Made by a program: the position numbers and the translations under genes. DNA of 11,091 bases, from contig VBLM01000549.1 of assembly GCA_005879095.1 (NCBI GenBank), positions 1 to 11,091 on the forward strand, in the 5' to 3' direction. The stretch is from Deltaproteobacteria bacterium (GTDB taxonomy: Bacteria; Myxococcota; Myxococcia; Myxococcales; 40CM-4-68-19). The notes beneath the pieces are model-generated. The model was not told where the DNA came from. It made no database searches and worked only from the letters and a program-made list of their open reading frames with translations. Below are positions 5,172 to 8,601 of the stretch, piece by piece (within the stretch, counting starts at the first letter, position 1; each line of letters begins with the position of its first letter).

Positions 5172-5896
5172 GCGCCGTCCTGCGCGCCGATGGGTTGTCG
5201 AAGCGCTTCGGCGGACTGAAGGCCGTCGACAACGTCTCGCTGACGCTCGACGAGGGCCGCATCCTCGGGTTGATCGGGCCGAACGGCGCCGGCAAGAGCA
5301 CCTGCTTTTCGATGCTGGCGGGATCGACCTCGCCGACGGCGGGCCGCGTCTTCCTCGGCGATCGCGAGATCACCGGGCTGCCGGCATTCCGCGCCGCGCG
5401 CGGCGGCGTGGTGCGCACGCACCAGATCGTGCGGCCGTTTGCAAATTTGACGATTTTCGAAAATGCGGTGGTCGCGGCGGTGCAGTGCTCGGGGCTCGAT
5501 CATGCCGGGGCGCGCGCGCTGGCGCGGGAGACGCTCGAGTTCGCCGGGCTGGCGGCGCGGCGCAACGAATATCCGGCCGGTCTCACGCTGGCCGGCCGCA
5601 AGCGGCTGGAGATGGCGCGTGCGCTCGCCTGCGCCCCGAAAGTGCTGTTGCTCGACGAGGTGATCGCCGGCGTCAATCCCGCCGAGGCGCAGGAGATGGT
5701 GACGCTGATCCTGCGCATCCGCGACGAGCGCAAGGTCTCGATCATCATGACCGAGCACGTGATGGCGGCGGTGATGCGTCTCTGCGAGCGGGTCGTGGTG
5801 CTCGACGCGGGCAAGCTGATCGCGGCGGGAGAGCCGAAGGAGATCGTGCAGAACCCGGAGGTGATCGCGGCGTACCTGGGGAAGAAGCATGCTTGA
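5168..5896 (+). CDS. livG: Branched-chain amino acid-type ABC transporter ATP-binding protein LivG
   Basis: A 242-residue cytoplasmic ATPase powering the LivHM channel. The GTG start at 5168 is preceded by gggag (5157-5161) at 6-nt spacing and overlaps the livM stop. It has Walker A GPNGAGKST (37-45), a Q-loop THQ (Gln86), Walker B VLLLDE with Glu164, the LivG-type insert AGVNPAE, and H-loop MTEH (His197). The ABC signature is altered: LTLAGRKRLEMARAL (139-153) stands where LSGGQ or LSYGQ is usual. A diverged signature in one partner is known among LivG proteins, and the canonical signature is retained in the LivF partner. It starts directly at the domain and is slightly shorter than many LivG proteins (about 255). 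It overlaps livF by 8 nt. Confidence 0.94.
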   Translation: MSAVLRADGLSKRFGGLKAVDNVSLTLDEGRILGLIGPNGAGKSTCFSMLAGSTSPTAGRVFLGDREITGLPAFRAARGGVVRTHQIVRPFANLTIFENAVVAAVQCSGLDHAGARALARETLEFAGLAARRNEYPAGLTLAGRKRLEMARALACAPKVLLLDEVIAGVNPAEAQEMVTLILRIRDERKVSIIMTEHVMAAVMRLCERVVVLDAGKLIAAGEPKEIVQNPEVIAAYLGKKHA

Positions 5897-6593
5897 GGTG
5901 CGCGCCATCGACGCCGCGTACGGCGACGTGCAGGTGCTCGCCGGGCTCTCGCTCGAGGTGCGGGAGAAGGAGATCGTCACGCTGCTCGGTTCGAACGGCG
6001 CGGGAAAGACGACGACGCTCCGCTGCGTCACCGGGCTTCTCGCGCCGCGCAAGGGCGAGGTCCTGTTCCGCGGACAGCCGTTATCGAAAGTTGCGGCGAG
6101 CGATCGGGCCGGACTTGGAATCGCGCTGGTGCCGGAGGCGCGCGAGTTGTGGCCGCAGCTCACCGTGCGCGAGAACCTCGAGTTGGGAGCGTACGACAAG
6201 CGGGCGCGGGGGCGGGCGGCGCAAAACCTGGACCGCGTGCAGGTGATGTTTCCGCGCCTGCTCGAGCGGCGGTCGCAGGTGGCGGGCAGCCTTTCGGGCG
6301 GCGAGCAGCAGATGTGCGCGATCGGGCGCGCGCTGATGTCCGAGCCGTCGCTGCTCTTGCTCGACGAGCCGTCCTTGGGGCTCGCGCCGATCGTGGTCGA
6401 GCAGATGTTCGAAGCCATCCGGGCGCTGCACGCTTCGGGGATGACGATCCTCCTGGTCGAGCAGAACCTCGCGGCTGCGCTCGAGATCGCGACGCGAGGG
6501 TACGTGATCGAGACGGGGCAGGTGAAGCTGAGCGGGACGGCTGCGGAATTGCGGTCCGATCCGAAGATCCGGGCAGCCTACCTTGGACTGTAG
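5889..6593 (+). CDS. livF: Branched-chain amino acid-type ABC transporter ATP-binding protein LivF
   Basis: The second ATPase subunit, 234 residues, pairing with LivG; last gene of the importer operon. The ATG at 5889 has ggggaag (5878-5884) just upstream. Motifs: Walker A GSNGAGKTT (34-42), LVPEARELWPQLTVRENL (the LivF 'VPE.R..F..LTV.ENL' segment), an intact signature LSGGEQ (135-140), and Walker B LLLLDEP (155-161) followed by SLGLAP. The switch is LLVEQN with Gln193, the usual LivF replacement of the H-loop histidine. Signature and switch residues are thus complementary to LivG, consistent with an asymmetric heterodimer. The stop at 6591-6593 lies 23 bp before the inverted repeat of element 2, so the element abuts the operon end. 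Confidence 0.95.
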   Translation: MLEVRAIDAAYGDVQVLAGLSLEVREKEIVTLLGSNGAGKTTTLRCVTGLLAPRKGEVLFRGQPLSKVAASDRAGLGIALVPEARELWPQLTVRENLELGAYDKRARGRAAQNLDRVQVMFPRLLERRSQVAGSLSGGEQQMCAIGRALMSEPSLLLLDEPSLGLAPIVVEQMFEAIRALHASGMTILLVEQNLAAALEIATRGYVIETGQVKLSGTAAELRSDPKIRAAYLGL

Positions 6594-6616: not shown

Positions 6617-6667
6617 GTTCTAGGCACCCAGTTCTAGTTCTAGTTCTTGTTCTTGTTTGTGCTCTTG
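6617..6667 (+). repeat. Left terminal inverted repeat of element 2, with hexamer array
   Basis: It matches the reverse complement of 7138-7188 at 45 of 51 positions; the first 13 bases are perfect. From 6631 it is built of 6-nt units, gttcta, gttcta, gttctt, gttctt, gtttgt, gctctt, which continue in degenerate form beyond the repeat to about 6696. The remaining stretch to the gene (6697-6730) shows only a weak aggg (6717-6720) as a possible ribosome-binding site. Confidence 0.85.
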
Positions 6668-6730
6668 CGGGTGTTCGCGTTCTTGCGTCGGTTCTGGGAT
6701 TGGCATGTCGCGTGCTAGGGACAGCGCCGC

Positions 6731-7087
6731 ATGAGCGATTGGAACACGATGCCGTACGAGAACCTCTTCGCCTATCAAGTGGCGAAAGAGCTCCTCGTCG
6801 TCGTAAGCGAAGCAAAGATCGCCGACCCGCGCTTGAGGGATCAGGCGCTGCGAGCGGCGAAGAGCGTTTGCCTGAACATCGCCGAAGCCACCGGTCGGCA
6901 GACGCCTGCGGATCAAAAGCGCGTTTACGCAATTGCGCGCGGCGAGTTATCGGAAGCGGTCGCTGCCATGGAAATCGCGTCAGTTGTCGGTGATTGCTCT
7001 CTTGAGGCTGCAGCCACGGCGCACGCTGCGGGACTGAAGCTCCACGCTCTGCTGTGCGGCCTATTGCGCCGCCAAACACCGGACTAG
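6731..7087 (+). CDS. Four-helix bundle protein (S23 / 23S rRNA intervening-sequence family), copy 2
   Basis: A 118-residue homologue of the protein at 1531-1884. The core reads LRDQALRAAKSVCLNIAEA (about residues 35-53) followed by TGRQTPADQKRVYAIARGE, again the family signature. Of 75 aligned core residues 50 are identical; the N-termini and the last helix have diverged. The ATG at 6731 has only a weak aggg ten bases upstream; Met7 (6749) is an alternative start. Unlike copy 1, no hairpin over the start was seen. It is the only gene inside a 572-bp unit with terminal inverted repeats and is not part of either flanking operon. It may bind structured RNA or DNA, by analogy with the Avd fold; no function can be assigned. 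Confidence 0.88.
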   Translation: MSDWNTMPYENLFAYQVAKELLVVVSEAKIADPRLRDQALRAAKSVCLNIAEATGRQTPADQKRVYAIARGELSEAVAAMEIASVVGDCSLEAAATAHAAGLKLHALLCGLLRRQTPD

Positions 7088-7177
7088 AACTCGAGCTCGA
7101 ACACGAGCTCGAACTAGAACACGAGTTCGAACTAGAACACGAGCTCAAACGAGAACAAGAACCAGAACCAGAACCGG
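7088..7177 (+). repeat. Purine-rich hexamer array directly after the stop codon (element 2)
   Basis: Fifteen units follow the TAG without a gap: aactcg, agctcg, aacacg, agctcg, aactag, aacacg, agttcg, aactag, aacacg, agctca, aacgag, aacaag, aaccag, aaccag, aaccgg. The array is in register with the upstream reading frame. Its distal half forms the inner part of the right terminal inverted repeat, so the hexamer array and the terminus are one structure. Confidence 0.85.
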
Positions 7178-7188
7178 GTGCCTAGAAC
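7138..7188 (-). repeat. Right terminal inverted repeat of element 2
   Basis: Reverse complement of 6617-6667 with 45 of 51 matches. The six differences fall mainly at the variable last base of each hexamer, so the arrays look as if they drift at that position while the termini stay conserved. The end gggtgcctagaac is exact. Confidence 0.85.
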
Positions 7189-7239: not shown

Positions 7240-8601
7240 TCAAAAAACGTAGTTCCAGTGCACCAGCAGCGACTTGAACGTCGGCTGCGACAGCGACAGA
7301 AGCGCGCTCAACGGACGCCGCGGTCCTCCCGCGACCGCCGGATCGAGCGGGAGCGGCGTGTACGCCGCGTTGCCGGCGGCGATCGCCTGCGGGCCGTACG
7401 CCGAGGTTCCGTGGTTGACCTGCACCTCGATGTTCAGGTGGTTCAGGTTCTTGTTGAAGAAGAAGTTCAACCCCGCCTTGAAGTTGCGGCTGTCCGCGCT
7501 GTGCGTCGTGCCGAGCGTACCCGGCTTGCCGACGCAGGTGGCGATCTGGGCCGCGCTCAACGCCAGGGGGTTGCAATCGGCCCCGATGAAGAGGTCATAG
7601 GCGAGATACGGGGCGATCGCCCCGTATCGGTACCCGGCGGCTGCGGAGAAACCGTAGCCGGTGTTGCCCGAGCCGGCGCCGTTGTTGTTCAGGTAGCCCG
7701 TCACCTCGGCGACCAGCTCGGCGGCTTCCGTCATCGGCAGGTTGAGGTAGAGGCTGGTGTCGAAGACACCCACGTCGGTGAGGCTGCCGAAGGCGTTCTT
7801 GATCGCCAGCGACTGGTAGTTGCCGGCGACACCGAGGGCGAGGATGGGGTCCTTTGCCCACTTGTAGGCGCCGTACAGGTAACCGCCTTCGTCGGCGCCG
7901 ATGATGCTGAAGTTCAAGAAGCCGCGGAACATCGGATTGCGCTTCGGCGTCACGCAGCTGCCCGGCGTCGCGGGCGCGCAGTTGGTGGCCGCCGCGGTAT
8001 TGGTGTTGGCGGGAGCGCCGCCGAGCGTCGCGGCGGCCGGCGTGTACCCCTCGTAGACGCCGCCGCGCCAGCCGATCTTCTTGTTCCTCCACCAGCCGCG
8101 CAGCTGTATTCCGGTGTCGCGGTTGGCGGGAAGGGCCGAGCCGGGGAAGCGGTACGCGTCGCTCTGCCCGTCCGCGGTGATGTAGTTGGTCGTGCTCTCG
8201 AGCGCCTGGTGCGAGATCGGGGTGAGCAGCAGGCCGGCTTCGATGAGGACCACCGTACCGCCGGTGAGCCCGACGGGCGCCCAGGCGACCCACGCGTCCT
8301 GAATGATCGCGCGCGAGGTGAAGTTGCCGTACCTGCCGAAGTTCGGGTTGTCGATCTGTATCAGGTATTGGAAGTTCGGCCCCAGGTCGCCGTTGACCAG
8401 TAGCCGGGTGCGGCGGACCGCAATCTCGTAGGCGGCGCTGGTGCCGTCGGGCGAACCAGCCTCGGTGGTGAGGAATTGCGGCTGGAGCTGGAGCTGGATG
8501 TTGAGCGTCGCCCCCTCGATCGGGATCGGGACCTTGGTTGCAAACGACGCGGCGGGCGTGAGAACGAGGGCAAAGGCAATGGCCCGGCAGGTAGCCTTCA
8601 T
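7240..8601 (-). CDS. Outer-membrane porin, OprO/OprP-like, copy A
   Basis: A 453-residue beta-barrel protein. It has a Sec signal peptide, MKATCRAIAFALVLTPAASFA, followed by TKVPIPIEGATLN. The region RRTRLLVNGDLGPNFQYLIQ (63-82), with RAIIQDAWVAWAP and LLLTPISHQALESTTNYI downstream, resembles the phosphate-selective porin O/P family. It ends LLVHWNYVF, with alternating aromatic residues and a C-terminal Phe typical of the BAM assembly signal. Many short amphipathic strands alternate with Gly/Asn/Ala-rich loops; Cys208/Cys216 and Cys343/Cys356 could form loop disulfides. The start is supported by agggggt, which overlaps the stop codon of the upstream porin gene only 10 nt away, implying coupled translation. 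It aligns without gaps to the neighbouring porin (337 of 453 identical, hand count). The permeant is unknown; phosphate selectivity should not be assumed. Confidence 0.85.
   Translation of the reverse strand: MKATCRAIAFALVLTPAASFATKVPIPIEGATLNIQLQLQPQFLTTEAGSPDGTSAAYEIAVRRTRLLVNGDLGPNFQYLIQIDNPNFGRYGNFTSRAIIQDAWVAWAPVGLTGGTVVLIEAGLLLTPISHQALESTTNYITADGQSDAYRFPGSALPANRDTGIQLRGWWRNKKIGWRGGVYEGYTPAAATLGGAPANTNTAAATNCAPATPGSCVTPKRNPMFRGFLNFSIIGADEGGYLYGAYKWAKDPILALGVAGNYQSLAIKNAFGSLTDVGVFDTSLYLNLPMTEAAELVAEVTGYLNNNGAGSGNTGYGFSAAAGYRYGAIAPYLAYDLFIGADCNPLALSAAQIATCVGKPGTLGTTHSADSRNFKAGLNFFFNKNLNHLNIEVQVNHGTSAYGPQAIAAGNAAYTPLPLDPAVAGGPRRPLSALLSLSQPTFKSLLVHWNYVF

Follow-up and report, generated by a model that had tools for sequence, protein, structure and literature searches.

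What kind of unit carries the S23 gene

A small S23-family gene, enclosed by inverted repeats and lying between two protein genes, raises the question of what kind of genetic unit carries it and what part the S23 protein plays in that unit. According to the available text of PMC4990558, S23 (PF05635) proteins have no known function, and whether intervening sequences (IVSs) were ever mobile has been an open question since the 1990s, with hypotheses cited there. The locus was analysed within a window of 11,091 nucleotides (the whole stretch of DNA presented), in which the following features surround the gene.

5889-6593, + strand: gene taken to be livF (flank by open-frame position)
6617-7188, no strand: S23 unit, 572 bp, between livF and the porin-like gene
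6617-6667, + strand: left arm, 13-bp terminus followed by GTTCTN hexamers
6617-6629, + strand: terminus GTTCTAGGCACCC, 12 exact sites in the MAG
6731-7087, + strand: S23 (PF05635) four-helix-bundle gene, 118 amino acids (55.1 bits, E 1e-14)
7079-7174, no strand: further hexamer array 3' of the S23 gene (family D1), copies 12-18 bp apart
7138-7188, - strand: right arm, 45/51 complementary to the left arm
7176-7188, - strand: terminus, exact reverse complement of GTTCTAGGCACCC
7240-8601, - strand: gene taken to be porin-like (flank by open-frame position)

The initial annotation had described a unit bounded by GTTCTAGGCACCC with terminal inverted repeats, built from hexamer arrays, lacking a transposase and holding one small S23-family gene, and the observation was borne out. 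The two 51-nt arms are complementary at 45 of 51 positions (88%) and end in exactly inverted 13-bp sequences, and hexamer arrays occupy both arms as well as the tract at 7079-7174. The only gene found inside matches Pfam PF05635 (23S_rRNA_IVP) above its cut-off of 33.8 bits, and no transposase was seen in the 572 bp, where longer frames overlap on the other strand. The arms reached a score of 72, compared with 0 of 600 random positions in sampled genus genomes scoring 40 or above, and the 13-mer occurs at 12 exact sites in the 3.78-Mb, 62%-complete MAG (G000) versus none for its reversed control, so the arms are not due to chance. The unit sits between two protein-coding frames, which we take to be livF and a porin gene following the first reading of the sequence, and not inside an rRNA gene; 23 bases separate it from the stop codon of the upstream neighbour, and 51 bases from that of the convergent one. 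No Rfam family matched the window at the gathering score, and the unit, folded as RNA, has a predicted z of -8. Because the terminus GTTCTAGG contains CTAG, a frame running into it from either direction can meet a TAG stop, and several open frames end at the CTAG of unit termini.

The product of 6731-7087 was modelled by AlphaFold2 as all helical (mean pLDDT 95.2), and a PDB profile search with it returned 2gsc (E 3e-14), 2rld weakly (E 0.008) and no others. It has a pI of 6.1, and is thus not basic, and it has no close paralogue among the S23 genes found. At its start site, the predicted fold pairs two of three start-codon bases and 8 of 11 bases of the ribosome-binding region. A Xanthomonas S23 structure is described in the available text of PMC4990558 as a homopentamer of four-helix bundles.

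Seven dispersed units with common ends

The 12 terminus sites in the MAG resolve into seven units, namely the window unit and six gene-less hairpins of 116, 128, 129, 130, 130 and 132 bp, two of which are altered at one terminus. Within this dispersed seven-unit family with common ends, only the 572-bp unit carries a gene. The terminus, for which a search of the host genome and its relatives had been proposed, is therefore not single copy in its host, nor is the sequence fixed in relatives, its exact form having no site in any of six congeners (G001-G006) and one site each in three of 53 further relatives. Neither ground for refutation named in the initial annotation was thus found to hold. 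The earlier view of compact inverted-repeat S23 units as an under-described element type agrees with this, the window unit being one of several in its genome; no description of free-standing, multi-copy S23 units with gene-less derivatives was found in the literature searched, a body of text whose coverage lies outside preprints and most subscription papers. As in MITEs, six gene-less units of 116-132 bp have common terminal inverted repeats, but no transposase-bearing element with the same ends was found among the seven units of this 62%-complete MAG.

As measured from mechanical open frames rather than annotated genes, a frame ends 3-9 bases from the unit in five of the seven cases (L002, L004, L006, L008 and L009), with stops on both sides at 3-4 bases in L004, L008 and L009, while the nearest frame of L001 is 82 bases away. 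Four gene-less units are predicted to form RNA hairpins with z of -12 to -15. No constant target-site duplication was seen by eye in the unit flanks, the relatives being too diverged. Reading the arrays as coding sequence was rejected, since by eye the frames hit stops in gene-less units. One gene-less unit (L001:1485-1630) lies, by eye, inside a GC-rich palindrome, GCGCCTGCCGGCGCC / GCGCCGGCAGGCGC, after a terminator-like hairpin.

One free base in six

Most columns were invariant when the 14 arms were aligned; three or four letters were found at columns 14, 21, 27, 33 and 39, A or T at column 45, and T or G at column 50, five after 45. Leaving out column 16, where three rows have an insertion, the variable columns from 14 to 45 follow one another at intervals of six; the exceptions are column 17, also with four letters, and columns 5, 7, 18, 29, 34 and 47, which differ in one or two rows. 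The free base of the hexamer takes three or four letters, T being the commonest in most columns. Mismatches in paired arms tend to recur every six bases (permutation P < 1/5000 over seven hairpins): five of the six in the window unit fall in a single hexamer phase, and phase strength is 0.83-1.00 in five hairpins, the period being absent from L001 and L002 (0.33 and 0.13, respectively). Outside the GTTCTAGG family the period is weak (P 0.09 over eight hairpins).

Copying of arms from their own partner was rejected, own-arm divergence being 0.136 versus 0.125 between units. Selected mismatch at the free bases was likewise rejected for columns 14-39, where own arms match in 12 of 35 cases versus 12.5 expected; at columns 45 and 50 they match in 2 of 14 versus 6.6 expected (P 0.02; P 0.07 for all seven columns), which is only suggestive of such selection. 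The sixth-base pattern could reflect either selection on five of six bases or alteration of the sixth at copying, and a protein requiring five of six bases would yield it.

The same sites in congeners

Flank searches were made for the window site and for five of the six gene-less sites (L006 was left out), and the junctions were then read. No relative aligned on both sides of the L004 site. Junctions without a unit were present at the L009 and L008 sites in G003, at the L002 site in G005, and at the L001 site in G003, G004, G005 and G006; the L002 site in G003 has about 100 extra bases with other repeats. G002, the congener with the highest identities in the flank searches, holds other hexamer palindromes at the three junctions where both its flanks aligned (L001, L002 and L008), and these differ among themselves, whereas the G000 units have one common terminus. 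The G002 palindromes fit hot spots or in-place rewriting as well as they fit insertion.

Comparison of livF-porin junctions for empty sites, which the initial annotation had put forward, gave a divided result. In G003 the window unit is absent and the junction holds 67 extra bases with other repeats, but G002 keeps a broken S23 unit beside the same porin. That unit lies 3' of the same tandem porins; its other neighbour differs, livF being on another contig. Its S23 gene has an in-frame stop and is truncated; of the genus loci compared it is the nearest to the window S23 (79.7 bits, with 54.5 for the next) and probably its orthologue. The arms of the unit differ in sequence from those of the window unit and still pair. 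Other G002 copies were sought with a single exact pattern of this unit's terminus, which was found in G002 at the unit's own two ends only and at 0-3 sites in other genomes, like the control. Because a probably orthologous S23 unit is kept there, the window site is probably old and not a fresh insertion; it probably predates the G000/G002 split, the arms having changed since. Gene-less copies have been found only in the genome with an intact S23 (six in G000, none found in G002), an association that in one genome pair is suggestive only.

Distribution of S23 genes

S23 matches number 9, 16, 13, 3, 0, 0 and 0 in the seven congeners G000-G006, respectively, and S23 is present in 31 of 145 genomes of the order (E <= 1e-5). 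A tree of 40 S23 proteins, from which L052, L053 and L055 were left out, contained single-genome clades (5 in G001, 4 in Labilithrix and 3 in MAG-89), and the nine proteins of G000 were scattered in it and did not form one burst (6 changes; 19 of 500 shuffles as low). Mean dN/dS was 0.10, 0.20 and 0.07 in three clades, the window's own clade not among them; S23 genes of these sister clades are kept by purifying selection. One weak S23 hit was obtained in plasmids and none in phages.

Flanking inverted repeats with a score of at least 35 were found at 15 of 27 scored genus S23 loci (30 loci given, of which two had no ORF found and one a short flank). An arm often matched arms at other loci no less well than its own partner (L013 scored 72 with its own and up to 98 with another), which is expected in a family and is no proof of a unit. 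A wider test, into which 61 of 80 loci were entered and one dropped for a short flank (those omitted were mostly cut-off loci, and loci of MAGs equal to G001-G003 are included), gave such repeats at 24 of 60 S23 loci from named genomes versus 1 of 600 random positions, with 36 of the 60 below 35. Short-period arrays were found at 21 of 41 S23 loci (out of 80, most G001 copies being left out) versus 5 of 300 random positions, the random positions of both flank tests coming from sampled genus stretches whose composition was not matched to other phyla. The inverted repeats around S23 are for the most part arrays of 6-8-nt units and occur also in Deinococcota, Bacteroidota and Patescibacteria; the period in Myxococcota is mostly 6, that in Meiothermus and Calidithermus 7, and that in Chitinophagaceae and Patescibacteria 7 or 8.

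Per 100 kb, inverted repeats number 6.1 in G000, 9.9 in G002, 5.0 in G001, 4.6 in G003, 1.6 in G005 and 0.3 in G004, in non-random stretches taken from the contigs of earlier match lists (a few chosen by contig number, some S23-bearing; G006 unsampled). This plain count separated the genomes, whereas a strict lag-6 test of the inverted-repeat places gave 0-2 per genome and did not.

Some further arrangements were observed. Adjacent S23 pairs on opposite strands with small gaps occur at G033:C1 (four places) and G049:C5, C6 and C12, with further opposite-strand pairs at G043:C12 and C74, G028:C145 and G001:C74 (L205:9613-10276); they seem to be palindromes that include the gene itself, the sequence having been read for G001:C74 only. 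At L056, L058 and L021, the S23 frame does not end before the 3' array, so that the protein has a repeat tail, for example HELDIGHEKEH. A second short-palindrome family, of the CACCGCGGAGGCGCGGAG / CACCACGGAGGCACGGAG type, occurs in G000, G002 and G003 at the places listed below; none was seen among the 14 of 19 G001 places shown, nor among the 6 (G005) and 1 (G004) places in the sampled stretches.

G000: L139:9620-9702, L148:9317-9408, L142:5735-5819, L150:5054-5147
G002: L162:2687-2789
G003: L213:8556-8697

A second S23 unit and conserved hairpins

The window holds a second S23 unit about 4.7 kb from the first, which did not figure in the initial annotation's finding and whose arrays differ from those of the 572-bp unit.

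1303-1945 (about), no strand: second S23 unit, AAGGAA/TTCCTT-type hexamer arrays on both sides, outer ends by eye
1383-1422, + strand: conserved hairpin motif GCAG.C.CGCGCC-stem-TGTCACT..CTGC, found beside S23 genes
1480-1539, + strand: hairpin around the start site of the second S23 gene (L014), taking in its ATG and ribosome-binding region
1531-1884, + strand: second S23 gene, 117 amino acids (PF05635, 52.2 bits)

Its arms, at about 1303-1335 and 1893-1926, have a score of 41. The hairpin motif (CGCGCC-stem-TGTCACT-CTGC) is carried by many S23 units of the genus, with 6, 13, 4 and 3 matches in the S23-bearing genomes and 0, 0 and 0 in those without S23; a control motif matched once (in G003), and some matches in G003 and G000 lie at places without an S23 match. 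In the motif stems 99.5% of cells are paired, compared with 28-49% in slid versions. Covariation amounted to 30 double-change cells versus 9.5 in shuffles, in a set of 19 rows that includes both ends of some units and in which five of six outer pairs never vary; further pair types showed no excess (7 versus 7.0). The start-site hairpin of the second gene has a predicted energy of -55.2 kcal/mol with all three ATG bases paired, and a fold pairing the whole start codon and at least 7 of 11 ribosome-binding-region bases is predicted for 18 of the 28 genus S23 genes, the gene at 6731-7087 being weaker in this respect; both results are without shuffle control. A start-site hairpin may keep S23 expression low in many S23 units. 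An Rfam search of five loci at a relaxed threshold gave two chance-level mir-1910 hits only.

Relation to known elements

The nearest known kind is the S23-bearing IVS of 23S rRNA. As far as the available text of PMC4990558 describes it, the Coxiella burnetii 23S rRNA IVS has 28-bp terminal inverted repeats forming a stem, GACAGAT heptamers before the ORF, and an S23 ORF whose protein is reported as probably not made, and authors cited there had proposed that IVSs were mobile. By that description, the two kinds share terminal inverted repeats that form a long stem, an S23 ORF in the loop, a sporadic distribution, and short tandem repeats on the 5' side, which are heptamers in Coxiella and hexamers in the window unit. 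Unlike an IVS, the window unit has a place between protein genes and gene-less relatives with the same ends in its genome, and unlike what is described for Coxiella, sister S23 clades here are under clear purifying selection.

RU-1, RU-2 and RU-3, described in the available text of PMC2759123 as small mobile intergenic repeats (MITEs) of enterobacteria, are likewise intergenic units of 100-170 bp with several copies per genome. The present family differs from them, as there described, in that its gene-bearing relative encodes S23 and not a known transposase, and in its period-6 arms, where each hexamer has one free base.

REP palindromes with their REP-associated Y1 transposases are likewise intergenic, and here too one genome holds both palindromes and a relative with a gene. 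The units differ from them in length and in having S23 as their gene; Y1 genes of G000 lie elsewhere, the one examined having other repeats, and the GTAG/CGTC tag given in the available text of PMC3733652 is not at the termini of the window-unit family. The REP analogy drawn in the initial annotation holds for architecture, in that 12 inverted-repeat pairs spaced 150-800 bp apart in non-random stretches enclose S23 or an S23 relic in seven cases, Y1 in two and neither in three; no Y1 gene with the same palindromes was found in the seven units or at the one G000 Y1 match examined. By the same analogy, the S23 protein may bind the folded unit ends.

How the units may have spread

Somewhat better than an even chance is given to the reading that the units are free-standing relatives of 23S rRNA IVSs, that is, MITE-like hairpins acted on by their own S23 protein. 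A unit strand would fold into a long hairpin, which an S23 multimer (a pentamer in the solved homologue) would bind or protect; this action would be needed for copying of the unit to new places, mostly just behind stop codons, and in trans it would also serve gene-less units with the same arms. Host enzymes, or else a Y1 transposase encoded in the same genome, would carry out the cutting and joining, with no part for reverse transcription. The mobility itself is inferred from sequence. The reading draws on the dispersed seven-unit family, on arm pairing that mostly involves five of every six bases, on S23 bursts in some genomes, on purifying selection on sister-clade S23 and on the inverted 6-8-nt arrays around S23 in several phyla, and it is favoured by junctions without the unit and by S23 counts of 0 to 16 within one genus. 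Weighing against it are the 36 of 60 S23 loci below score 35, the nine G000 S23 genes that are not one burst, a window S23 that is not basic, and Y1 counts that split the genus in the same way as S23.

This last point favours an unlikely but live alternative with Y1 transposases as the moving enzyme, in which REP-type Y1 transposases act in trans on the hairpin units and S23 is a passenger or hairpin regulator, unneeded for movement. Y1 transposases recognise hairpins, and Y1_Tnp matches number 13, 13, 21 and 20 in the S23-bearing G000, G001, G002 and G003 versus 1, 4 and 3 in G004, G005 and G006, which lack S23, a perfect split whose chance is 1/35 with relatedness not corrected. However, the Y1 gene at G000:C163, the only one of 13 G000 matches looked at, is flanked by other repeats, GGGGACACCC, no Y1 gene lies in any of the seven units with GTTCTAGGCACCC ends, and S23 recurring between inverted arrays across phyla, under purifying selection, is left unexplained. 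Y1 genes framed by their own inverted repeats were seen at L149:6595-7384 (G000:C163) and L161:13654-14198 (G002:C146).

Stop-codon spacing, at 3-9 bases in five of seven units, fits the reading of MITE-like hairpins served by S23 and also fits a distinctly improbable one, in which long-standing hairpins, passed on vertically, serve the host at the 3' ends of genes (in end protection, in termination or as a boundary), their arrays rewritten in place and S23 a domesticated binding protein. Such a role would agree with other hexamer palindromes at all three resolved G002 sites, with the probably orthologous G002 unit beside the same porin and with arms nearly invariant in five of six bases across seven units, but it is at odds with congener junctions without any unit, with 0 to 16 S23 copies in one genus and single-genome clades, with one terminus throughout the G000 units where the G002 palindromes are mutually different, and with the lack of arm-to-arm copying within units (own 0.136, other 0.125).

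Very improbable, and for this genus largely refuted unless a reverse transcriptase lies outside PF00078, is an RNA-borne element. Its folded transcript would be excised as an IVS is, then copied into DNA again by a reverse transcriptase, S23 taking the role of Avd in diversity-generating retroelements. S23 and Avd share a fold and the RNA hairpins have z of -12 to -15 (four gene-less units) and -8 (window unit), but the only two PF00078 hits across seven genomes are in G003 and G006, the PDB profile search returned 2gsc and 2rld only, and the reverse-transcriptase route was rejected on finding no PF00078 match in the three S23-rich congeners G000, G001 and G002 (62, 97 and 96% complete, with 9, 16 and 13 S23 matches, respectively), a retro route being unlikely.

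The reading of the units as IVS relatives acted on by S23 has a wider form, advanced tentatively and with a probability well short of even: S23 would be the dedicated mobility factor of a class of transposase-less hairpin elements in many phyla, its multimer reading a duplex with a free or flipped base at every sixth position, and the 23S rRNA IVSs would be members that landed in rRNA genes.

Implications

S23 genes here occur in multiple copies under selection, inverted short-repeat arrays often enclose them, and gene-less units sharing the same ends go with one of them. The question of S23 function can thus be put to experiment, with a protein of 118 aa and a substrate of 128 bp. That one base in six is left free within the paired arms of this family offers a precise and verifiable clue to the way in which the hairpin is recognised. 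Taken together, the findings suggest that S23 genes, best known from rRNA insertions, belong to a small kind of spreading genetic element.
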